DNA of 33,065 nt, from NCBI GenBank assembly GCA_013141315.1, contig JABFRF010000043.1, forward strand, positions 1 to 33,065. Reading direction: 5' to 3'. Of the stretch, positions 1,762 to 32,754 are shown piece by piece (within the stretch, counting starts at the first letter, position 1; each line of letters starts with the position of its first letter). Made by a program: the position numbers and the translations under genes. Origin of the DNA: Gallionella sp. (GTDB taxonomy: Bacteria > Pseudomonadota > Gammaproteobacteria > Burkholderiales > Gallionellaceae). Under the pieces are notes generated by a model. That model was not told where the DNA came from. It worked only from the letters and a program-made list of their open reading frames with translations, and searched no databases.

Positions 1762-3115
1762 GTGAACCTCCTGCTGACTGATGCTTAGGCTTGCCTGAAA
1801 GCGGCTGTGGATCAAGCGTTGCAACGGTTAAATTATCGTCCTGCAAAAATTCTTGCGCCACTTGCTGCACTTGCTCTGCTGTGACGGCTTGCAGTTTTTT
1901 CAACATCACTGCGGTTGCACCATAGCCCAAACCGATGCTTTCCATTTGCCCAATTTGCATCGCTTGGTAAAACAGCGAATCAAGTTTGTACACTTCGCTT
2001 GCCATTACTTGCGCTCGGATACGCTGCAACTCTTCCTCACTCACACCATCTTTAATCAGCAATGCAATTTCTGCGCGCAATGCCGTTTCAACATCACTCA
2101 CAGTTTTGCCTGTGCTGGGCGTTGCTTCTAAGGTAAACAAACTTGGTCCGCGCGCAGTCGAGTCATAGCCAGCACCCGCACTACTGGCGATTTGTTGTTC
2201 ACGCACCAGATGTTTATTGAGACGCGCAGATTGATTGCCATCCAGCACCCCAGCCAAAATCTCCAGTGCATAAGGCTTCCAGTCCTGCGACAAATTTTGT
2301 ACGGTTGGTGTGTGATAACTCATCACCAGTTGCGGCAACTCGGCAGGAGCTTTCACCACCAAACGTTTTATTCCCAATTGGGCTGGCTCGGTAAAATGTC
2401 TGCGTGGCGGCTGTATCGATTTTGGAATCGGACCGTAATATTTTTTCGCCAATGCAAAAACTTCTTCCGCATTAACATCGCCCGCAATCACCAACGTAGC
2501 GTTGTTCGGTGCATACCAACGCTTATACCAATCGCGCGCATCGTTGACGGTGAGCTCTTCCAAATCACTCATCCAACCAATCACCGGATGTTGATAAGGA
2601 TGCTGCTGATAAATCGCCGTATTCATCACCTCATTCATCAGCGACTGTGGCTCATCATCGGTACGCATGCGCCGCTCTTCCATCACCACCTTCACCTCTT
2701 TGCCGAACTCTTCTGCGGTGAGATTAAGGTTATGCATGCGATCCGATTCCAGCTTCATCGCCAGGGGCAATTGCGATTTGTGTAACTGCTGAAAATATGC
2801 CGTGTAGTCCGTACTAGTAAACGCATTTTCGCGACCTCCCGCTGCGGCAATGCGCTTGGAGAATTCACCCATCGGCACAGCTTTCGTGCCTTTGAACATC
2901 ATGTGTTCCAGCACGTGCGCGATACCCGTCTTGCCGGTGCGCTCATCCATACTGCCCGCCTTGTACCAAATCTGCTGCACGATCACTGGCGCACGATGAT
3001 CTTCCTTCACCACCACTTTTAATCCATTCGCCAACGTACGCTCGAATATTTCCGCTTGAGCCGAAGTCAGCGACCAAGCTAACAGTAACGCGATGTAAAA
3101 TAGACGTGTCTTCAT
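1751..3115 (-). CDS. M16 family zinc peptidase (catalytic), secreted
   Basis: HVLEHMMFKGT (HXXEH zinc motif) and a signal peptide MKTRLFYIALLLAWSLTSAQA; the ORF extends to 3145 but the signal peptide start is at 3115. Confidence 0.9.
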   Translation of the reverse strand: MKTRLFYIALLLAWSLTSAQAEIFERTLANGLKVVVKEDHRAPVIVQQIWYKAGSMDERTGKTGIAHVLEHMMFKGTKAVPMGEFSKRIAAAGGRENAFTSTDYTAYFQQLHKSQLPLAMKLESDRMHNLNLTAEEFGKEVKVVMEERRMRTDDEPQSLMNEVMNTAIYQQHPYQHPVIGWMSDLEELTVNDARDWYKRWYAPNNATLVIAGDVNAEEVFALAKKYYGPIPKSIQPPRRHFTEPAQLGIKRLVVKAPAELPQLVMSYHTPTVQNLSQDWKPYALEILAGVLDGNQSARLNKHLVREQQIASSAGAGYDSTARGPSLFTLEATPSTGKTVSDVETALRAEIALLIKDGVSEEELQRIRAQVMASEVYKLDSLFYQAMQIGQMESIGLGYGATAVMLKKLQAVTAEQVQQVAQEFLQDDNLTVATLDPQPLSGKPKHQSAGGSHGH

Positions 3116-21624: not shown

Positions 21625-21915
21625 ATGCGCCCTTCCATAGCACTACAGCAACACCGCGATGAAATTCGCCGCATCGCACTCAGCCATCGCGTTACCAACA
21701 TACGCGTGTTCGGCTCTGCACTGCATGGCGACGACACCGAAGACAGCGACCTCGACTTGTTAGTTGAACCAACTTCAGAAACTACCTTGATGGACATCGC
21801 CAAGATACAAGTAGAAGTGGCAAAGTTACTCAACCTCAGCGTGGATGTATTAACTCCGAATGCTCTACCCGACAAATTCCGCACCCAAGTAATAAACGAG
21901 GCTGTAGCAGTATGA
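21625..21915 (+). CDS. MNT-type nucleotidyltransferase (MntA-like antitoxin)
   Basis: VFGSALHGDDTEDSDLDLLVE: GSX10DXD motif; ATGA overlap with the following HEPN frame. Confidence 0.88.
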   Translation: MRPSIALQQHRDEIRRIALSHRVTNIRVFGSALHGDDTEDSDLDLLVEPTSETTLMDIAKIQVEVAKLLNLSVDVLTPNALPDKFRTQVINEAVAV

Positions 21916-22274
21916 GTAGAGCGGACGTTTTGCGCATCCCAGACTACCTCGAACACATAGTCGAAGGCATTGAACGCATTCACCGCTACGTTTCTGATGT
22001 AAGTGAAATTGATTTTCTTGCAGATGAAAAAACCTAGGATGCCGTGATACGCAATTTTGAAAACATCGGTGAAGCCGCGCACAACATCGAACGCTACCAC
22101 TCGACATTTGCCGAAGCACATCCCAACATCCCCTGGACAGTTGTTTACGCCATGCGCAACCGTATCGCACACGGCTACTTCAAAGTTGATTTAGAAATGA
22201 TTTGGGAAACTATCCACGCCGAATTGCCAGAGTTACATACGCAGATCAAGCAACTGCTCGAAGAGATCAAATAA
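21912..22274 (+). pseudogene. HEPN-domain (DUF86/HepT-like) toxin interrupted by in-frame TAG at 22035-22037
   Basis: Frame reads MSRADVLRIPDYLEHIVEGIERIHRYVSDVSEIDFLADEKT*DAVIRNFENIGEAAHNIERYHSTFAEAHPNIPWTVVYAMRNRIAHGYFKVD...; homologous sequence continues past the stop and holds the RN-x3-HGY catalytic motif. Confidence 0.88.
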
Positions 22275-22307: not shown

Positions 22308-23306
22308 ATGGATCGCCTGCAACGTATCTACAAACTTCATCAGGCAATTTTGTCGCGCCGCCATCCCTTATCCTTAAAGACATTACAAAATGAACTTGAA
22401 TGTTCGCGCGCCACGGTCAATCGCATCATTCAAGAAATGCGCCTGTACTTCAACGCACCAATTGAGTATGACCGCCAGCGCAACGGTTACCACTACGCAC
22501 TGAGCGATGGACAAACCTTCGAGCTACCCGGACTCTGGTTCAGCGAAACCGAACTCTATGCGTTGCTCACTACCCAACAATTGCTCGCACACGTACAACC
22601 CGGCTTGCTCGACACACAACTCAAACCGATCAAAGAACGCATCGAACAAATCCTCGCTGCCAGACACTTGGGCGACGCAAAGCTTTTGTCCGGGCACCCG
22701 AGTGAAGGAATCTCCAAGCGGGTGCGTATCCTGCGCATGACTGGACGCAATGTCGCACTGGAATGCTTTCAAACCGTAGCAGGTGCATTGCTGCAAAGAA
22801 ATGCTCTGCGCATCAGCTACCACGGGCGCGGCAACGACGAAACCAGCCAGAGAGAAATCTCTCCGCAGCGGCTCATCCACTACCGCGACAACTGGTATCT
22901 GGACGCTTACTGCCATACCCGCAACGCCCTGCGCAGCTTCGCCGTCGAACGCATCACCGCCGCCCAAGCATTGCCACAACGTTGCCGCGACGTACCCGAA
23001 AAACAACTTGATGCACATTACACCAGCTCCTACGGCATCTTCGCGGGCAAACCCAAATACACCGCCGTGCTGCGCTTCACCCCGGAGAGGGCGCGCTGGG
23101 TAGCCGATGAACACTGGCATCCTCAGCAACAAAGCCATTGGTTAGAAGGCGGCAGCTATGAACTGCGCATCCCTTATTCCGACCCGCGCGAACTGGTGAT
23201 GGACATACTCAAGCATGGAGCAGAAGTGGAAGTTGTTGAACCTGCCTCGCTGCGCCAGATGTTATTCAAACACTTGCAACAGGCGATACAAAACTATGAA
23301 AAATAA
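22308..23306 (+). CDS. WYL-domain transcriptional regulator (HTH + WYL)
   Basis: N-terminal HTH (LSLKTLQNELECSRATVNRIIQEMR) and WYL-like REISPQRLIHYRDNWYLDAYCHTRNALRSFAVERI; immediately upstream of cas3. Confidence 0.9.
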   Translation: MDRLQRIYKLHQAILSRRHPLSLKTLQNELECSRATVNRIIQEMRLYFNAPIEYDRQRNGYHYALSDGQTFELPGLWFSETELYALLTTQQLLAHVQPGLLDTQLKPIKERIEQILAARHLGDAKLLSGHPSEGISKRVRILRMTGRNVALECFQTVAGALLQRNALRISYHGRGNDETSQREISPQRLIHYRDNWYLDAYCHTRNALRSFAVERITAAQALPQRCRDVPEKQLDAHYTSSYGIFAGKPKYTAVLRFTPERARWVADEHWHPQQQSHWLEGGSYELRIPYSDPRELVMDILKHGAEVEVVEPASLRQMLFKHLQQAIQNYEK

Positions 23307-23354: not shown

Positions 23355-25925
23355 ATGGATAAAGTTATAACACTTCAAGACATTACGATTGCGCATCATC
23401 GAAAAAGCGATGATGCAATTCAAACCCTTGAGCAGCACCTGCTTGGTGTTGCAAACAAATCTTGCCTATACGCAAAAAAATTGAATCTGGAAGACCAGGG
23501 GGAGTTGATTGGCCTTCTCCATGACCTAGGAAAATACAGTCTGGCATTTCAGTCCTACATCAAATCTGCCGTCGGCTTGCTCAATCAAGATGAGGATGAA
23601 GAGTTTGTTGATGCAGTGGGCTTGAAGGGCAAGATTGACCATTCCACGGCAGGTGCACAGCTGATCTGGCAAGAACTCTCGAAGCAGGGGCAGCTTGGAC
23701 AGATTGTTGGTCAAATCCTTTCTCTATGTGTTGCGTCTCACCACTCTGGCCTGATTGATTGCTTGTCGTCTGACACAAACAGCTTGGGCGAAGACGTATT
23801 CAGCAGGCGCATGAACAAGGTTACGGAGCGCACTCATTTACAAGAATCACTTACCAAGGCTGATGCTTCGATTCTTTCACGAGCAAAGGCACTGACCGGC
23901 AAGCCGAACATGATTCCCGCAATGCAGGCGGCACTTGCAAAAATCATACGATTAGCCCCAATCAAGAATGACAAAAGCACGGTGGTTCAACAGCAGTTCG
24001 GCTTGCTAGTGCGTTTTTTGTTTAGTTGCCTGATTGATGCAGACCGTGTTGATTCAGCAGATTTTGAAAGTCCAAAAGCTGCAAAATTAAGGGCGAACGG
24101 TCAATACACTGAATGGAATGCCTTGTGTGAACGCTTGGAAAACCACCTTTCCTTGCTTACCCCCTTAAAGGACATTGATTATCTTCGTAGTGATATTTCC
24201 AACCACTGTCACAATGCCGCAACTCGCGCCAAAGGTATCTATACCCTGACTGTCCCCACGGGCGGAGGAAAAACCCTCGCCAGCCTGCGTTTCGCACTAC
24301 ACCACGCGAAAATGCACAAGATGGATCGAGTGATTTACGTCATTCCGTTCACATCCATCATTGATCAAAATGCGGATGTAACAAGAGAAGTGCTTGAGCC
24401 AAATAGTTTTTGCTGGTTAAAAAAATCGTATAAGTCAAATTGCAACCATGCAGATTGGGCGGCACTTGAACCACGTGGCGTGGAATCTGGCAGTGTCGTT
24501 CTCGAACACCATTCCAACCTAACGCCAGAAGAGCAAAGTTGGCGCGGGAAAATTCTGGCGGAGAACTGGGATGCGCCCGTCATTTACACCACGAGCGTGC
24601 AATTACTGGAAACTCTTTTTGGTGCTGGTACGCGCGGCGCACGTCGGATGCATCAGCTAGCCAATACCGTGCTGATCTTCGATGAAATCCAAACGCTGCC
24701 AGTTAACTGTGTTCACTTGTTTAACAACGCCATCAATTTTTTAGTCGAACAGTGCGGGAGTACCGTTGTTCTGTGTACCGCCACCCAACCGTTACTCGAT
24801 CAAGTTAACGTCGAGAAAGGTGCGCTCAGAATACCAGCGGGTAATGAACTGATGCACGATGTAAAAAAGTTGTTCGATGAACTGAAGCGGGTCGAGGTAA
24901 AAAACCGGCGCAAGCCCGGCGGCTGGACAAATGACGAGATTGCCGCACTGGCAATGGAAGAGACGCGGCGCGCCGGTAGTTGTTTAGTAATCGTCAACAC
25001 CAAGAATGCCGCACAAACCTTATACCGTTTATGCCAGCAACCGGACGGCATCCCGCTCTACCACTTGAGCACAAGCATGTGCCCGACACATCGCAGAGCG
25101 ATATTGGCCGAGATACGAGAGCGCTTGGAGCAACAACTACCCGTGCTTTGCTTCAGCACTCAACTGATTGAAGCAGGAGTAGATGTCGATTTTGGTTCTG
25201 TCATTCGCTTCACAGCAGGATTGGATTCAATCGCTCAAGCGGCAGGACGCTGTAACCGCAACGGCCTGCGCGATATTGGAACTGTGCATGTGGTCAATCC
25301 CCAGGATGAGCGCATTGAAATGTTGCAGGATATTTGTATCGGGCGAGACAAGGCTGAACGTGTACTGGACGAATACGAAGATAACCCACTCCAGTTCGGA
25401 AACGACCGAATTGGCCTCGAAGCAATGAAACGCTACTACACCTACTATTTCTTTGCTCGACAAGACGAGATGGATTACCCGCTCTCTGACAAAACTATCG
25501 GACACACAGATACCCTGCTCAACCTGCTTTCAGGAAATTCATTAGCTGTACGTGATTATGGTAAAAAAGCTGGGCACGAACCCAACATCTACCTACGCCA
25601 ATCTTTTATGTCTGCCGCCAAGGCATTCAAGGCCATTGATGCGCCGACTCAAGGTGTCATCGTGCAATATGGCAAAGAGGGACAAGCAATCGTCGCCGAA
25701 CTTTGCGCGGCTTATCTGCCGGACAAGGAATTCGATATGCTGCGCCGTGCGCAGCAATTTACCGTCAATGTCTTCCCCAATGTTTTGGATCGACTGACCA
25801 AAGCGGGGGCAGTGCGGGAAATACAAGAAGGAACGGGCATCCTGTATCTTGATTACCGTTACTACAGCGACGAATTTGGACTGAGCGAAACACCCGTGAG
25901 AAATATGGAGGCATTGAATGCTTAA
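23355..25925 (+). CDS. cas3: CRISPR-associated helicase/nuclease Cas3 (HD + DExD/H), type I-C
   Basis: HD motif GLLHDLGKYSLAFQ, ASHHSG, Walker A VPTGGGKTLASLRFALHHA, LIFDEIQTLP, helicase C-terminal STQLIEAGVDVDF...QAAGRCNRNG. Confidence 0.97.
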   Translation: MDKVITLQDITIAHHRKSDDAIQTLEQHLLGVANKSCLYAKKLNLEDQGELIGLLHDLGKYSLAFQSYIKSAVGLLNQDEDEEFVDAVGLKGKIDHSTAGAQLIWQELSKQGQLGQIVGQILSLCVASHHSGLIDCLSSDTNSLGEDVFSRRMNKVTERTHLQESLTKADASILSRAKALTGKPNMIPAMQAALAKIIRLAPIKNDKSTVVQQQFGLLVRFLFSCLIDADRVDSADFESPKAAKLRANGQYTEWNALCERLENHLSLLTPLKDIDYLRSDISNHCHNAATRAKGIYTLTVPTGGGKTLASLRFALHHAKMHKMDRVIYVIPFTSIIDQNADVTREVLEPNSFCWLKKSYKSNCNHADWAALEPRGVESGSVVLEHHSNLTPEEQSWRGKILAENWDAPVIYTTSVQLLETLFGAGTRGARRMHQLANTVLIFDEIQTLPVNCVHLFNNAINFLVEQCGSTVVLCTATQPLLDQVNVEKGALRIPAGNELMHDVKKLFDELKRVEVKNRRKPGGWTNDEIAALAMEETRRAGSCLVIVNTKNAAQTLYRLCQQPDGIPLYHLSTSMCPTHRRAILAEIRERLEQQLPVLCFSTQLIEAGVDVDFGSVIRFTAGLDSIAQAAGRCNRNGLRDIGTVHVVNPQDERIEMLQDICIGRDKAERVLDEYEDNPLQFGNDRIGLEAMKRYYTYYFFARQDEMDYPLSDKTIGHTDTLLNLLSGNSLAVRDYGKKAGHEPNIYLRQSFMSAAKAFKAIDAPTQGVIVQYGKEGQAIVAELCAAYLPDKEFDMLRRAQQFTVNVFPNVLDRLTKAGAVREIQEGTGILYLDYRYYSDEFGLSETPVRNMEALNA

Positions 25926-26634
25926 ACGAAATAGCATCGAATTTAAGGTCTGGGCGCGACATGCCCTGTTCACCGACCCGCTGACTCGCATCGGCGGTGA
26001 GAAATGTTCTTATCACATTCCCACCTTCGAGGCACTTAAAGGCATTGCCAAGTCAATTTACTGGAAGCCAACCTTCATCTGGGTCATTGATGAAGTAAGA
26101 GTGATGAAGCGCATCCGCACACAGACCAAAGGCACCAAGCCTTTGGAATTTGGCGGCGGCAACTCCTTGGCCATTTACACATTCCTATCTGACGTGGAAT
26201 ACCAAGTACGCGCTCATTTCGAGTGGAATGAACACCGCCCCGAATTGGCGGATGACCGGAATGAAGCAAAACATCACATCGTAGCCAAGCGAATGCTTGA
26301 ACGTGGCGGTCGCCAAGACATTTTTCTTGGGACACGGGATTGCCAAGGATATGTCGAACCCTGCGTGTTCGGCTCTGGAAGCAGCCCTTACGATGGCGAA
26401 GGCAAATTGGCTTTCGGCTTAATGTTTCATGGCTTCGACTATCCCGACGAAATCGGCGAGGAAAAGCTTTATGCCAGATTTACCCGACCAACGATGGTTG
26501 ACGGAAAAATCCTATTTGAACGCCCGCAGGACTGTACGGTGCGCAAGTTCGTTCGCGACATGGGCAAAAAAATGTTCACCAAGGATCGCAATCTTCTCGA
26601 CGTAGAAACCGAAGAGTCACGGCTGGAGGTTTGA
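25918..26634 (+). CDS. cas5c: Cas5c (Cas5d), type I-C pre-crRNA processing protein
   Basis: FKVWARHALFTDPLTRIGGEKCSYHIPTFEALKGIAKSIYWKPTFIWVIDEVRVMK; overlaps cas3. Confidence 0.96.
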   Translation: MLKRNSIEFKVWARHALFTDPLTRIGGEKCSYHIPTFEALKGIAKSIYWKPTFIWVIDEVRVMKRIRTQTKGTKPLEFGGGNSLAIYTFLSDVEYQVRAHFEWNEHRPELADDRNEAKHHIVAKRMLERGGRQDIFLGTRDCQGYVEPCVFGSGSSPYDGEGKLAFGLMFHGFDYPDEIGEEKLYARFTRPTMVDGKILFERPQDCTVRKFVRDMGKKMFTKDRNLLDVETEESRLEV

Positions 26635-26635
26635 C

Positions 26636-28591
26636 ATGAGCTGGATTCAGAAACTTTACGAGACATATGAGCAGTGCAAGGGTAATGAGCCTCCCGGCTC
26701 AGTCCCTTTGATGCCTATCAGCCATACACCGCAGCAAGCACACATCGAAATTACGCTCGATGTCGCGGGCAATTTTAAAGGTGCCAAAATTGTCCCCAAA
26801 GAGGAAACCATCATACCGGCCACCGAAAAATCAGCAGGTAGGGCTGGCGCAGTATGCGCACCTCACGCGCTGTGCGACAAACTCCATTATTGCGCCAAAG
26901 ACTATCCAAACTTTGGCGGGAAAAAACTTCCCTTTTTCAATGAATATGAGCGGCAGCTATCAGCGTGGTGTAACTCAGTATTCAGCCATCCTAAAGCTCG
27001 CGCCATCCTTGCATATGTAAGCAACAACGGTGTTGTGGCCGACTTGGTTAGAGAACGGATTATCCATATTGGAACAGATGGGAAACTGCTTACCCGGTGG
27101 GGTAGCGAGGATGACACACCAGAGATTTTTCGTTTACTCACAGCAAAGGATGGGGAACGAGACCAAGGAGACGCATTTATCCGCTGGCATGTCAGGGAAG
27201 GAAACAATCCATGCTCTGCGGTTTGGGAAGACAATTCCCTGCAAGATGCGTGGGGATTGTTTGATGCCAGCATAAAAGATACGAAAGGTGTGTGCATAGT
27301 TACCGGTGAGCTAGACGCATCGCTCGCGGTAAATCATCCAAAGAGAATTCGTCATGCTGGAGATGGCGCAAAACTGATTAGTGCAAATGACGATACTGGC
27401 TATACATTTCGTGGGCGATTTACTGATAAAACTGGTCAGCAAGCCTGCGGTGTCAGTTATGCCGTGACCCAGAAAGCCCACAACGCCTTGCGCTGGCTGA
27501 TCGGTCGGCAAGCATATCGTAGCGGCAGTAATTTCGTTGTCGTCACATGGTCGGTTGCTGGCAAGCCCGTACCCGACCCATTCAAGGACTCTCGTTCCCT
27601 GATTCTGGGTAGCGGAGAACCGCCCGCCGAAGCCGCCCAAACCGAGCAATTAGATGTAGGCGATGTTGGTCAAGCTTTTGCAATCAGGCTGCGCAAGGCA
27701 ATTGCGGGTTACGGTGCGAAGCTATCCCCTACCGAAGACATCGTCGTCATGGGCTTGGACTCTGCAACTCCAGGCCGCATGGCTATCACCTTCTATCGCG
27801 AACTTAAAGGTTCCGACTTCCTGAATCGCGTGCAGCGTTGGCATGAGCAATATGCTTGGCAGCAAAACTTTGGCAAAGACTCAAAGTTTGTTGGCGCTCC
27901 AGCCCCGCGAGACATCGCCGAGGCTGCATTCGCAACGCGAATGGGGGACAGCGGTGAGTTGCGCATTGACGAAAAACTTCTCAAAACGACGATCGAACGG
28001 ATACTGCCATGCATAGTCGATGGTCGCGATCTGCCACGCGACCTCGTCGATTCAGTTTCCCGTAGAACTTGTAACCGCATTGGGCTGAAATACTGGGAAT
28101 GGGAGAAGCGTTTAGGCATTGCCTGTGCCTTGTTTAGAGGTTATTACACAGAAAGGGAATATCAAATGACATTGGAAATTGACCGGACATCACGGGACTA
28201 CCTTTATGGTCGCTTACTAGCCATTGCAGAAAATATTGAAAATTTCGCGCTGACAAAAGCCGAGAAAAACAGGGAAACAACGGCTGCAAGACTGATGCAG
28301 CGATTTTCAGATAGGCCATATTCCACATGGCGAAATATCGAGTTGGCCTTAACCCCCTATAAATCGCGATTACGTTCATCTGAGATGGGCGCTGGCTTCC
28401 TTGTCAAAAGGGGAAAGCTACTGGATGAGGTTCTATGTGCATTTCAGCACGATGACTTTATCAATGACCGAACCTTATCCGGCGAATTCCTGCTGGGCTA
28501 CCACTGTCAGCGCCAAGCGCTGCATCCACCAAAGTCAGGCAAAACGGAGGTTCCTGCCTCAGACGACAATTCCACAAACACAGACAACTAA
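26636..28591 (+). CDS. cas8c: Cas8c (Csd1), type I-C
   Basis: LPFFNEYERQLSAWCNSVFSHPKARAILAYV..., SYAVTQKAHNALRWLIGRQAYRSGSNFVVVTW; position between cas5c and cas7c. Confidence 0.96.
   Translation: MSWIQKLYETYEQCKGNEPPGSVPLMPISHTPQQAHIEITLDVAGNFKGAKIVPKEETIIPATEKSAGRAGAVCAPHALCDKLHYCAKDYPNFGGKKLPFFNEYERQLSAWCNSVFSHPKARAILAYVSNNGVVADLVRERIIHIGTDGKLLTRWGSEDDTPEIFRLLTAKDGERDQGDAFIRWHVREGNNPCSAVWEDNSLQDAWGLFDASIKDTKGVCIVTGELDASLAVNHPKRIRHAGDGAKLISANDDTGYTFRGRFTDKTGQQACGVSYAVTQKAHNALRWLIGRQAYRSGSNFVVVTWSVAGKPVPDPFKDSRSLILGSGEPPAEAAQTEQLDVGDVGQAFAIRLRKAIAGYGAKLSPTEDIVVMGLDSATPGRMAITFYRELKGSDFLNRVQRWHEQYAWQQNFGKDSKFVGAPAPRDIAEAAFATRMGDSGELRIDEKLLKTTIERILPCIVDGRDLPRDLVDSVSRRTCNRIGLKYWEWEKRLGIACALFRGYYTEREYQMTLEIDRTSRDYLYGRLLAIAENIENFALTKAEKNRETTAARLMQRFSDRPYSTWRNIELALTPYKSRLRSSEMGAGFLVKRGKLLDEVLCAFQHDDFINDRTLSGEFLLGYHCQRQALHPPKSGKTEVPASDDNSTNTDN
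28166..28591 (+). CDS. cas11c: Predicted internal in-frame ORF for Cas11c small subunit within cas8c
   Basis: In-frame ATG (MTLEIDRTSRDYLYGRLLAIAENIE..., 141 aa) with SD-like AAAGGGA 7 nt upstream; internal Cas11c translation is an established property of type I-C cas8c genes. Confidence 0.75.
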   Translation: MTLEIDRTSRDYLYGRLLAIAENIENFALTKAEKNRETTAARLMQRFSDRPYSTWRNIELALTPYKSRLRSSEMGAGFLVKRGKLLDEVLCAFQHDDFINDRTLSGEFLLGYHCQRQALHPPKSGKTEVPASDDNSTNTDN

Positions 28592-28610
28592 TCGACCAGG
28601 AGACAACAAC

Positions 28611-29516
28611 ATGAGCACATTGCAAAATAAGATCGACTTCGCCGTAATTCTTCGCGTAAAAAATGCCAACCCGAACGGTGACCCACTCAACAGCAACCGC
28701 CCCCGCACCAACTATGAAAACTTCGGTGAAATCACTGACGTTTGCATCAAACGAAAACTTCGGGATCGGCTGGTTGAGCGGTTTACAAACCTCGGTGGCA
28801 AAGAGGGTAAGGCCGAAGCAAAAGGCCAAGCCGTGTTCGTTCAGTCGGATGATCGAAAAATCGACGATGCCACCAGCTTGCGCGACAGGGCTGAAAAGTT
28901 CTTCAAGTCCATTGGAAAAACGCTTGGCGCGGATGAGACGGTGAATCTCGCTTGCGCACAATGGATTGATGTACGCGCTTTCGGCCAACTATTCGCATTA
29001 TCCAAAAAGAAGGGCAAGAAAGCCGAAGGGGGGAGTGATGAAGAAGGCGATACCGGAATTTCCATCGGCATCCGTGGGCCGGTGACTGTTCAGTCTGCAT
29101 TCAGCCTGACCCCTATCGACATCAGCAGCACGCAGATTACCAAAAGCGTGAACGGTGAAGACACCAAAGATGGCAAAAGAAGTTCCGACACGATGGGTAT
29201 GAAACACCGCGTAGATCAGGGCATCTATGTTTTCTATGGCAGCATGAATCCACAACTTGCGGAGAAAACAAAATTCAGCGACGAAGATGCACAAGCTATC
29301 AAAGAAATCTTGCCTAAGCTGTTTGAAAATGATGAATCCAGCGCCCGTCCTGCGGGCAGCATGGAAGTTATCAAAGTGCTTTGGTGGAAACACAACTGCA
29401 AATCGGGACAGTATTCCTCATCCAAAGTACACCGTAGTTTGACGGTTCAATCCGATGGAAACATCCAGCTTGGCACACTTGATGGCATGAGTCCTGACGT
29501 TATTGATGGCTTCTGA
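28611..29516 (+). CDS. cas7c: Cas7c (Csd2), type I-C backbone subunit
   Basis: MSTLQNKIDFAVILRVKNANPNGDPLNSNRPRTN...; start corrected from ORF-track 28401 to 28611, which has an upstream SD (CAGGAGAC). Confidence 0.96.
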   Translation: MSTLQNKIDFAVILRVKNANPNGDPLNSNRPRTNYENFGEITDVCIKRKLRDRLVERFTNLGGKEGKAEAKGQAVFVQSDDRKIDDATSLRDRAEKFFKSIGKTLGADETVNLACAQWIDVRAFGQLFALSKKKGKKAEGGSDEEGDTGISIGIRGPVTVQSAFSLTPIDISSTQITKSVNGEDTKDGKRSSDTMGMKHRVDQGIYVFYGSMNPQLAEKTKFSDEDAQAIKEILPKLFENDESSARPAGSMEVIKVLWWKHNCKSGQYSSSKVHRSLTVQSDGNIQLGTLDGMSPDVIDGF

Positions 29517-29531
29517 TATAGGGGACAATGA

Positions 29532-29810
29532 ATGAGAAGCGATACCCCTCTCTATCTTATGTTAGCCAGCGCAGGCGGTCTGTTGGTGTTTATACTCACC
29601 ACCGACTGGCCGCGCCATGGCACATTATCTCTGCGCCATGCCGCTTGTTCTTTTGCCAAATCCGCCGGAATCACGCCTGCAACTACCGATACCGGTTGTA
29701 CTCTGGAAGGAAAATACGACATTGGGTGGAGTTTCACTGAAGTGCGCCTGCCCAACAAACAAAAACTGCTCATCAGCAATGCCGAGATTAGCGGCATAGT
29801 GCGAAAATGA
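29532..29810 (+). CDS. Hypothetical 92-aa protein with N-terminal membrane/signal segment
   Basis: MRSDTPLYLMLASAGGLLVFILTTDWPRHGTLSLRHAACSFAKSAGITPATTDTGCTLEGKYDIGWSFTEVRLPNKQKLLISNAEISGIVRK; starts 16 nt after cas7c. Confidence 0.6.
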   Translation: MRSDTPLYLMLASAGGLLVFILTTDWPRHGTLSLRHAACSFAKSAGITPATTDTGCTLEGKYDIGWSFTEVRLPNKQKLLISNAEISGIVRK

Positions 29811-29867
29811 TTGTTGTGATAGGGTATGCGCAAACACTTAAGCGCACGCAGCATAAGGAGAACACAC

Positions 29868-30077
29868 ATGCAATACGCTGACATCATCGCAAGGGAGGCC
29901 GATTCGCTCCCCGTGGAAAAACAGGCTGAGGTACTCGATTTCATCGAGTTCCTGAAAGCCAGGCAAAGCCGTGCCACAACTCCCATGACGATTACGGAAA
30001 TCGAGGCGTTCTTCCGCAGTTTCAAAGTAGATACGAGTGACTACAAGTTCGACAGGGGAGAAGCCAATGCACGCTAA
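29868..30077 (+). CDS. DUF2281-like small protein (putative antitoxin-class component)
   Basis: MQYADIIAREADSLPVEKQAEVLDFIEFLKARQ resembles the DUF2281 LPxEKQxEVLDFxEFL core; SD AAGGAG; overlaps the next gene by 11 nt. Confidence 0.75.
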   Translation: MQYADIIAREADSLPVEKQAEVLDFIEFLKARQSRATTPMTITEIEAFFRSFKVDTSDYKFDRGEANAR

Positions 30078-30414
30078 GGTGTTCAGTAACGAAGAGGGAC
30101 TGCTCCAACAAATGGTACAAACCATCGTCAGTGAAGTCGCACCAGAGACGATTATTCTCTTTGGTTCGCGTGCGCGCGGTGATGCCCGCTCCGATTCCGA
30201 CGTAGATTTGCTGGTAATAGAAAAAGAACCCTTTTCACCGCAACGCAGCCGTCGTAAAGAGATGGCGCGCCTGCAAATGGCATTGCGAAATCTGCCCCTT
30301 TCAAAAGACATTCTCTTGTATAGCCGAGACGAGTTCGAGTACTGGCGGAATTCGTTGAATCATCTGGTTGGGCGTGCAGGACGTGAGGGGAGAGTTTTGC
30401 ATGGCCGACTTTGA
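30067..30414 (+). CDS. MNT-type nucleotidyltransferase
   Basis: TIILFGSRARGDARSDSDVDLLVIEKE: GSX10DXD nucleotidyltransferase motif; overlaps both neighbours. Confidence 0.92.
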   Translation: MHAKVFSNEEGLLQQMVQTIVSEVAPETIILFGSRARGDARSDSDVDLLVIEKEPFSPQRSRRKEMARLQMALRNLPLSKDILLYSRDEFEYWRNSLNHLVGRAGREGRVLHGRL

Positions 30415-30802
30415 ACATGCCCGCGCCCTGTTACGCATGGCGCATAAGGATTTCAATGCACTGACGGGTATGTTGGATAAGGCTTTATTTGCCGATGAAA
30501 TTTTCGGATTCCATGTTCAACAGGCGGTAGAGAAAGCTTTGAAAGCTTGGCTCTGCGCTTATGATGTTATTTACCCACCAACGCACGATCTGGCGCGCTT
30601 GCTGACTCTGCTGGAAAAAGCCGGGGCGGATATTGAAGAATTCTGGCCGCTGGTTCAGTTCACCATTTTTGCAGTTCAGGCACGCTACGAAGAAGGTCTT
30701 ACCGAGTTGGATGAGCCGATTGATCGTGCTGCCGAAATTCAAAATGTCTCTGACTTGTTAACGCGCGTCGAAAAATTGATTGTCGCAAAATCCCTTGGCT
30801 GA
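30401..30802 (+). CDS. HEPN-domain protein (COG2250-like)
   Basis: MADFEHARALLRMAHKDFNAL...FGFHVQQAVEKALKAWLCAYDVIYPPTHDLARLL; overlaps the MNT gene by 14 nt. Confidence 0.9.
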   Translation: MADFEHARALLRMAHKDFNALTGMLDKALFADEIFGFHVQQAVEKALKAWLCAYDVIYPPTHDLARLLTLLEKAGADIEEFWPLVQFTIFAVQARYEEGLTELDEPIDRAAEIQNVSDLLTRVEKLIVAKSLG

Positions 30803-31418
30803 CGATGATCCCATCATGCTTTCCGCGCTCCAGCATTGGAGTTATTGCCCTCGCCAGTGCGCCCTGATTCATGTTGAGCAGGCATTCGATGAGAACGTCC
30901 ACACCATGCGCGGCAATGCGGCGCACGAGCGAGTGGATTATCCCGGATTTGAAACCTTCGAGGGTGTACGTGCCGAGCGGGCTTTGCCAGTGTGGTCGGA
31001 TAAGTTGGGGCTAATCGGCAAATGTGATGTGGTGGAGTTTCATCCCGACGGGCGCATTTATCCGGTGGAATACAAACATGGCAAAAAACGCGAAAAGTCC
31101 CATGACGATATTCAGCTTGCCGCGCAGGCAATGTGCTTGGAAGAAATGACAGGCAAGGTCATCACACACGGTGCGATTTATCACCACGGTTCGCGGCGCA
31201 GGCGTGAGGTGGCGATTACGCAGGAATTGCGTAACAAGGTGGTAGAGACCGTCAGTGCCATTCGCGCCATGATGAATTCCGGCAAACTGCCATCGCCTGC
31301 AAACGATGCGCGTTGCAAGGAGTGCTCGCTGAAAGAAATCTGTCAGCCACAGGTTATCGCTGAACATGCAATACAGTGTGGCCTGTTGCAAAATTTGTTC
31401 AAGCCAGAGGTGCTATAA
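30780..31418 (+). CDS. cas4: Cas4 exonuclease, type I-C
   Basis: DDDPIMLSALQHWSYCPRQCALIHVEQ; YPVEYKHGK; C-terminal CKECSLKEIC; start either TTG 30780 or ATG 30816. Confidence 0.95.
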   Translation: MSQNPLADDDPIMLSALQHWSYCPRQCALIHVEQAFDENVHTMRGNAAHERVDYPGFETFEGVRAERALPVWSDKLGLIGKCDVVEFHPDGRIYPVEYKHGKKREKSHDDIQLAAQAMCLEEMTGKVITHGAIYHHGSRRRREVAITQELRNKVVETVSAIRAMMNSGKLPSPANDARCKECSLKEICQPQVIAEHAIQCGLLQNLFKPEVL

Positions 31419-31420
31419 AA

Positions 31421-32458
31421 ATGGCGCGTCATATTCAAAACACCCTGTATGTGATGACCCCGAACTCCTACCTCCATCTGGAGAATGACACCTTGCGCGT
31501 GGATGTGGAGCGCGAGAAAAAGCTGCAAGTGCCTCTGCATCATCTGGGCAGTGTGGTGTGTTTGGGCAATATCATGCTCTCCCCCGCGTTGATGCACCGC
31601 TGTGCTGATGACGGCATTAGCTTGGTGTTGCTAAACAATCACGGGCGATTCAAAGCGCGGCTGGAAGGCTCAGTATCCGGCAATATCTTGCTGCGGCAGG
31701 CACAGCATCGCTTGGCACTAGATGAGAAATTTTCACTGAGCATTGCGCAAAGTGCCATTGCTGGAAAATTACGCAATAGCCGCCAAGTCTTGCTGCGCGG
31801 CGCGCGCGAAGCAGGTGATGAAGAAGATAGCAGCATGCTGACAGCCACTGCGGACATGCTTTCAAACTCGTTGCGCAATCTGCCGCACGCCCCCGATTTG
31901 GACGTACTACGCGGCATTGAAGGTGATGCGGCAAAAAATTACTTCGCCGCGTTACCGTTGTTGGTTAAGCGCGAGGCACGCGATAAATTCACGATGGATG
32001 GGCGTACTCGGCGACCGCCACGCGACCGATTCAACGCGCTTCTTTCGTTTCTCTACTCTATGTTGATGAACGACTGCCGGTCTGCGCTTGAGGCTGTCGG
32101 TCTCGATCCCCAGCTTGGCTTTCTGCATACCGTGCGTCCCGGACGAGCCGCACTTGCGCTGGACTTGATGGAAGAGTTTCGCGCTATTTTCGCCGACCGA
32201 CTGGCATTGACGCTGATTAACCGAGGGCAAATCAGCTCAAATGATTTTGCCGAACGTGAAGGCGGCGCGGTGCTGCTCGAAGGCGATGCGCGCCGTACCG
32301 TGGTAGTCGCGTATCAGGAGCGAAAACAAGAAGAAGTAATGCACCCGTTGTTAGAAACCAAAGTACCGATTGGGCTGCTACCATTATTGCAAGCGCGCTT
32401 CATGGCGCGCACCCTGCGTGGCGATATGGAAGGCTACCTTCCGTTTCTTTACCGTTAA
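31421..32458 (+). CDS. cas1: Cas1 integrase, type I-C
   Basis: [92 protein letters not shown]. Confidence 0.97.
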
Positions 32459-32463
32459 ACACT

Positions 32464-32754
32464 ATGCTGATTATTATCACTTACGACGTTTCCACTGTAA
32501 CCGCCGCCGGACGCAAGCGGCTGCGCCGTGTCGCAAAAGTTTGCGAAAGCACTGGGCAACGTGTGCAAAATTCAGTCTTTGAGTGCAAGGTCGATCAGAT
32601 GCAACTAGAAGAATTAGAGCGGCGGTTACTTGATGAGATCGACGAAAAGGAAGACAGCCTGCGCTTGTACCGATTGACGGAACCAGTGGAATTGCACATC
32701 AAGGAGTATGGCAAATTTCATGCTGTGGATTTTGAGGGGGCGCTGGTAATATGA
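32464..32754 (+). CDS. cas2: Cas2
   Basis: [44 protein letters not shown]; directly after cas1. Confidence 0.97.

Follow-up and report, generated by a model that had tools for sequence, protein, structure and literature searches.

The window analyzed here, the 33,065-nt contig JABFRF010000043.1 of Gallionella sp. (assembly GCA_013141315.1) read on its forward strand, comes from a metagenome-assembled genome (MAG) that is 81% complete, and its nearest loci belong to Gallionellaceae. It carries a complete type I-C CRISPR-Cas operon in which a WYL regulator gene is followed by cas3, cas5, cas8c, cas7, a 1.3-kb insert (29532-30802), cas4, cas1, cas2 and the first part of a CRISPR array (Table 1). 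The full gene order, Pfam and NCBIfam matches to Cas3, Csd1/Cas8c, Csd2/Cas7, Cas4 and Cas1c, and scores above the model cut-offs for Csd1/Cas8c (370.5 bits, cut-off 218.65), Csd2/Cas7 (310.7 bits, TIGR02589, cut-off 182.25) and Cas1c (513.3 bits, TIGR03640, cut-off 385) assign the operon to type I-C. The insert consists of four plus-strand genes encoding a 92-aa orphan protein, a DUF2281 protein, a minimal nucleotidyltransferase (MNT) and a HEPN protein, an arrangement that had been described from the letters alone (the sequence-only reading) and with which the Pfam and NCBIfam matches and the open reading frames (ORFs) agree. No Rfam matches were found in the window.

Table 1. Features of the insert, the surrounding type I-C operon and its upstream flank
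Feature	Coordinates	Strand	Evidence and remarks
92-aa orphan, first insert gene, 15 bp past cas7	29532-29810	+	N-terminal hydrophobic stretch, two conserved Cys
DUF2281 protein	29868-30077	+	PF10047, 26.5 bits, exactly at cut-off
vapC scar, about first five codons, then MNT	30067-30084	+	MHAKVF vs MP[AV]K[AV]FID
MNT, predicted antitoxin	30067-30414	+	PF01909, 42.1 bits (cut-off 21); GSx10DxD: GSRARGDARSDSDVD
HEPN protein, HEPN-T clade, predicted toxin	30401-30802	+	PF05168, 49.1 bits (cut-off 22)
cas7 (csd2), upstream border of slot	28608-29516	+	TIGR02589
cas4	30795-31418	+	TTG start at 30795 proposed; conserved ATG start lost
cas1, adaptation module	31421-32458	+	TIGR03640
cas2, adaptation module	32464-32754	+	ORF, found again in relatives
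cas3, interference module	23355-25925	+	
cas5, interference module	25918-26634	+	
cas8c, interference module	26636-28591	+	
CRISPR array start, 39-nt repeat, cut by contig end	32932-33065	+	repeat detection
WYL-domain regulator, CRISPR-associated kind, upstream of cas3	22308-23306	+	Pfam WYL; PADLOC CAS-associated WYL; also upstream of cas3 in L137 and L167
MntA-HepT-like pair, upstream of WYL regulator	21625-22274	+	hepT keeps RNRIAHGYF; in-frame TAG 22035-22037, a real nonsense change or a MAG error

The starts of MNT and HEPN were refined by replacing the listed GTG and TTG codons with conserved ATGs at 30067 and 30401. The overlapping frames of the sequence-only reading persist after this change: DUF2281 and MNT overlap by 11 bp, MNT and HEPN by 14 bp, and HEPN and cas4 by 8 bp with a cas4 start at TTG 30795, or by 23 bp from the mechanically assigned TTG at 30780. 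Relatives have an ATG at the position of TTG 30795, suggesting that the insertion or replacement consumed the usual cas4 start. Between cas7 and cas4 we found no promoter-like site, in a scan for sigma-70 sites only, and no plus-strand terminator-like site. Since the frames run into cas4 and no promoter-like site precedes them, the operon looks continuous, and the MNT-HEPN pair reads as part of one transcript with it.

Ratios of nonsynonymous to synonymous substitution rates (dN/dS) against relatives were low for MNT (0.05–0.12), HEPN (0.07–0.14) and DUF2281 (0.07–0.15, against loci L055, L058 and L061; L numbers denote the I-C and other loci compared), indicating that all three are real, conserved genes. 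Together with the Pfam scores, these values rule out chance ORFs, and a foreign composition of the insert was likewise ruled out, its GC content being similar to that of the neighboring sequence. The 92-aa orphan has no Pfam, NCBIfam or PADLOC match, and no good match elsewhere among 399 genomes of the order. Its one distant homologue also lies right after cas7, in a Sideroxydans locus (L069, cas7 93% identical) where it is followed by a ParE module, and shares the two cysteines and the N-terminal hydrophobic stretch.

Alignment across the insert separates the DUF2281 gene from the pair behind it. Positions 29855 to ~30084 match vapB (DUF2281) and the opening vapC codons of four cas7-cas4 gaps (L055, L058, L061, L108), and from 30084 onward the alignment switches to the MNT-HEPN genes of L167, so that the window's MNT begins with about five codons of vapC, a PIN remnant also detected by tblastn. 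In the window, then, MNT-HEPN has taken the place of vapC in a resident VapBC module; the DUF2281 gene is the vapB left behind and does not belong to the pair. DUF2281 recurs together with PIN in the same four loci, and MNT-HEPN pairs occur without it in cas4-cas1 gaps (L167, L070) and outside CRISPR loci (L135, L136). The junction alignment and these copies rule out a three-gene module, and the single DUF2281-MNT-HEPN cassette of the sequence-only reading has to be given up; the exact order cas7-DUF2281-MNT-HEPN-cas4 was found in the window only, and what does recur across I-C loci is the slot itself. In L137, MNT follows a PIN gene in the cas7-cas4 gap and HEPN is deleted. In L167, where a full cas4 lies upstream, MNT-HEPN is followed by a short cas4-like remnant (2818-2919, minus strand), a partial cas4 duplication which suggests that the pair was carried before a cas4 there too. 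Close HEPN relatives (E ≤ 1e-20) were found order-wide only in the window and in one further genome, which has the I-C copy also seen as L070; a search centered on the same genus added the two copies outside CRISPR loci, and no plasmid copies of the HEPN gene were found in PLSDB.

The two remaining genes have the makings of a toxin-antitoxin (TA) pair, as had been proposed: PF01909 and PF05168 score above their gathering thresholds, the genes are adjacent with MNT first, and they form a unit conserved as coding sequence. MNT resembles HI0073 (1no5, E 1.1e-5) and is intact in 6 of 6 copies compared. Intact pairs also exist in L167 and L135, and HEPN is broken in L070 and L136 and deleted in L137, with MNT kept in all three. 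The MNT-first order, the strong purifying selection and the loss of HEPN with MNT kept all speak for an active pair, in which HEPN is likely to be toxic and MNT would neutralize it. The description of HEPN as an RNase fares less well. Its alignment conserves FH.QQ.VEK, TH[DE]L and ARYEE/RYD and lacks the canonical Rx4-6H RNase motif; the conserved residues are the R of RYE/RYD and the upstream H of TH[DE]L. In HEPN-T proteins with D instead of H, a different histidine may serve, and HEPN domains that have lost RNase activity may work through binding (Anantharaman et al., PMC3710099). We found no solved structure related by sequence to the window's HEPN.

We compared this junction across type I-C loci drawn from cas4-seeded loci on GTDB contigs and from two surveys with the Csd2 model, one of the order (matches in 48 of 399 genomes) and one of the class (35 of 369). 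Genes were placed with profile hidden Markov models built for the analysis, 139 distinct loci were kept, and a junction with an intergenic gap of at least 250 bp was counted as filled. On this definition cas7-cas4 is filled in 73/139 loci, cas4-cas1 in 28/133, cas3-cas5 in 18/116 and cas5-cas8 in 3/125, and neither cas8-cas7 (0/132) nor cas1-cas2 (0/124) is ever filled. The cas7-cas4 gaps are bimodal, with 62 loci at ≤ 125 bp, 4 at 126–249 bp and the rest at 291–3190 bp. Fisher tests gave p = 3e-27 for cas7-cas4 against cas8-cas7 and p = 2e-9 for cas4-cas1 against cas1-cas2, values that overstate independence since the loci are related; kinship is addressed by the counts of cargo change on the tree given below. 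The pattern is the same in each survey, with cas7-cas4 filled in 15/31 loci of the class, 18/32 of the order and 39/75 of the cas4-seeded set. With its fixed position, differing cargo in many loci and other junctions empty, cas7-cas4 is a recurrent cargo slot in type I-C, and roughly half of the loci examined have it filled. TA cargo there is common.

The cargo of this slot is dominated by TA families. Components of such families occur in 60 of the 73 filled cas7-cas4 slots, on either strand, and 53 slots hold a complete pair. Cargo representatives were checked in Pfam, and complete pairs, of which some slots carry two, comprise ParE with Unstab_antitox (18, opposite strand), HicBA (18), DUF433-DUF5615 (6, as a TA pair a family-level prediction), DUF2281-PIN (5), HigBA (4), ParE/RelE with a small antitoxin (2), DUF4258-YgiT (2) and the window's MNT-HEPN. 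The HicB representative had no Pfam match, and its assignment relies on a position ahead of HicA and on similarity in sequence. Other contents of the slot are RhuM, Fic, Uma2, a 23S-rRNA-IVP-like protein and cas7 debris. RhuM-family genes lie in the cas7-cas4 gaps of L153, L168, L169, L171 and L172, alone or with a YgiT/DUF4258 pair.

A second slot lies on the other side of cas4. The cas4-cas1 gaps contain PemK-RHH (6, opposite strand), MNT-HEPN (L070, L167), HicBA, ParE and PIN pairs, MNT beside a HepT-like protein (L177), AbiEi-AbiEii, a SMODS synthetase, Nmad2 and others. The contents of this gap are broader and more defense-like: Moraxella bovoculi 237 (L122) has a SMODS nucleotide synthetase with a second, apparently membrane-associated protein, a CBASS-like arrangement, and L130, L144, L202, L205 and L168 hold an AbiEi-AbiEii-like pair, a possible reverse transcriptase of 494 aa (its first 230 residues had no Pfam match), Nmad2 and Bro-N. 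The cas3-cas5 gaps contain mostly short ORFs outside recognized families, many of them for small hydrophobic proteins; one such protein (e.g. MDWKGLMREVRLLLLQLPTSRFWAMWLLMLVALVGV...) lies between cas3 and cas5 in L055, L059, L185, L189 and L195.

Cargo sits directly upstream of cas4 or cas1 and never ahead of cas7 or cas2, and the 18 ParE and 6 PemK pairs run against the operon, as might be expected of regulatory cargo in which a self-regulated TA promoter, or a reverse-strand break, uncouples expression of the adaptation genes from that of the interference genes. In the window itself the operon looks continuous, with frames that overlap cas4 and no sigma-70 promoter-like site, and we regard such a role as very improbable.

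The type of cargo changes at least 27 times on the cas4 tree (64 filled loci, 10 types), against a mean of 37 for shuffled labels, which indicates that cargo is inherited only over short distances and often replaced. Where cas7 shares 83% identity or more with that of the window, the slot holds VapBC (L061), HicBA (L062, L066), ParE (L064), the orphan with ParE (L069) or DUF433 with HicBA (L068). Loci with cas4 84–91% identical to the window's have a cas7 that is either 83–90% or only about 30% identical, and cargo families are equal across both cas7 groups, with DUF2281-PIN in L055, L058 and L108 as well as in L061. The same cargo beside similar cas4 and divergent cas7 shows that the adaptation half moves, together with its cargo, between two old interference lineages, and the discordance of cas4 and cas7 points to frequent recombination at their junction. 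The slot lies at the seam between swapped interference and adaptation modules.

Such strongly discordant histories would also suit a neutral landing site, in which the junction is simply the recombination point of swapped cas modules and selfish TA pairs settle there with no effect on CRISPR maintenance; damaged toxins and empty slots, both common, fit it as well. Yet other junctions of the operon, namely the never-filled cas8-cas7 and cas1-cas2, are equally short, TA genes make up nearly all of the cargo and transposons or random genes are few, and both genes of the window's pair are under purifying selection, so we consider a purely neutral site unlikely. Toxin decay has a direction: counted by hand over all slots, the toxin was damaged, missing or replaced with the antitoxin kept in 15 cases (L059, L068, L070 twice, L072, L074, L088, L108, L137, L139, L143, L146, L175, L207 and the window's vapC), and the reverse was seen in 2 (L102, L196), an imbalance with an exact two-sided sign test, also by hand, of about 0.002 that is as expected if the toxins are active. 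A few of the lone DUF433 or DUF2281 genes in this count may never have had a partner.

We therefore favor, with moderate confidence, an interpretation in which the insert is TA cargo in a recurrent I-C slot and stabilizes the CRISPR locus by linkage; the cargo would most likely be ordinary TA modules that stabilize the operon, or its adaptation half, by addiction. The TA pair sits where the interference genes (cas3-5-8-7) meet the adaptation genes (cas4-1-2). If the operon were deleted, or its adaptation half replaced, this stretch would be lost and the longer-lived toxin left without its antitoxin, making loss of the operon or a swap of its adaptation half costly. The trigger would be the ordinary TA trigger, needing no signal from Cas proteins, and any TA pair could substitute for another, which would explain why families and strands are mixed. 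These patterns would imply a selective benefit to the CRISPR locus. A broader possibility, which we offer more tentatively, is that type I-C operons offer, to either side of cas4, a dedicated docking site that spans lineages and takes up interchangeable protein TA modules; these would act as a general addiction layer and hold the two halves together or the locus in the genome.

Several observations weigh against stabilization by linkage. TA modules are good at colonizing any tolerant site, so their enrichment alone is no proof of a benefit to CRISPR. The cas7-cas4 slot is empty in 66/139 loci, and cargo is to that extent dispensable. In the cas4-cas1 slot, and in a few cas7-cas4 slots, there are defense genes other than TA or unknown genes, and the toxicity of the window's own HEPN is uncertain given its missing Rx4-6H motif.

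A tighter connection would exist if the pair were wired to CRISPR as an abortive infection or guard system, with failed Cas interference (e.g. through anti-CRISPR proteins) releasing the toxin, as in CreTA or CrePA. The location within the operon, the coupling of the frames with cas4 and the precedent of CreTA (PMC12737573) fit such wiring, as does the finding of close MNT-HEPN copies mostly in I-C slots (the window, L070, L167, and L137 with HEPN deleted) as opposed to outside (L135, L136). Against it, unrelated TA pairs with antitoxins of their own are interchangeable in the slot and often lie on the opposite strand, and each unrelated antitoxin would have to respond to Cas proteins. The best CRISPR-repeat-like match in the insert, inside HEPN, was equalled by 25 of 400 other window segments and is no better than chance, so that no CreA-like RNA was found in the insert and the CreTA-like link raised by the sequence-only reading is not supported. 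Wiring of this sort strikes us as highly unlikely, linkage-based addiction being the simplest reading.

How CRISPR-Cas loci, which carry a cost and readily disappear, are maintained is still an open question, with CreTA as the main known answer. If stabilization by linkage holds, unrelated protein TA pairs exchanging at one junction would be an independent and far more general solution, and the distribution of cargo suggests that self-poisoning modules repeatedly anchor to the I-C immune system. The filled, empty and broken slots of sister species would serve as natural replicates, the slots as a natural stock of toxins with their matching antitoxins, and their cargo as a marker of adaptation-module exchange between interference modules. 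TA elements tied to CRISPR loci are already known, and the novelty of the slot is provisional: our search of the open full-text literature, covering articles outside subscription, turned up no description of a TA slot between cas7 and cas4 of type I-C.

The window's cassette itself is another member of the known MNT/HEPN pairs. It resembles the type VII MntA-HepT system (Shewanella SO_3165/SO_3166, PMC4621449) in having MNT first and HEPN second with overlapping frames, in the GSx10DxD motif, which lies at the conserved place (GSRARGDARSDSDVD), and in selection on both genes, but its HEPN belongs to PF05168 (HEPN-T) and not to PF01934 (HepT) and lacks Rx4HxY. In NCBIfam the MNT scores 36.4 against an MntA cut-off of 60 and the HEPN has no HepT match, placing the pair outside that family. 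MntA-HepT-like pairs do occur upstream of the WYL regulator, where the sequence-only reading missed one whose hepT has the in-frame TAG, and in the cas4-cas1 slot of L177. The pair shares its two-gene order and a similar MNT with HI0073/HI0074, an MNT with a HEPN substrate-binding partner, whose HEPN family is not the same. With VapBC modules that use a DUF2281 antitoxin it shares the DUF2281 gene, homologous to the antitoxin in other I-C slots, and differs in the absent PIN toxin, of which about five codons are left.

At the level of the slot, the closest comparison is with CreTA, an RNA toxin-antitoxin that guards CRISPR-Cas (PMC12737573). Both are TA elements that lie within a cas operon and could render the cell dependent on it, but the cargo described here consists of interchangeable protein pairs from many families, each with its own antitoxin, at the cas7-cas4 junction. 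The general idea of coupling immunity to dormancy is common to these loci and to the suicide genes in immunity loci discussed by Makarova et al. (2012, PMC3506569). That account describes toxins in such loci and states that typical TA antitoxins are absent from them, whereas complete pairs with their antitoxins are common in the I-C operons examined here.
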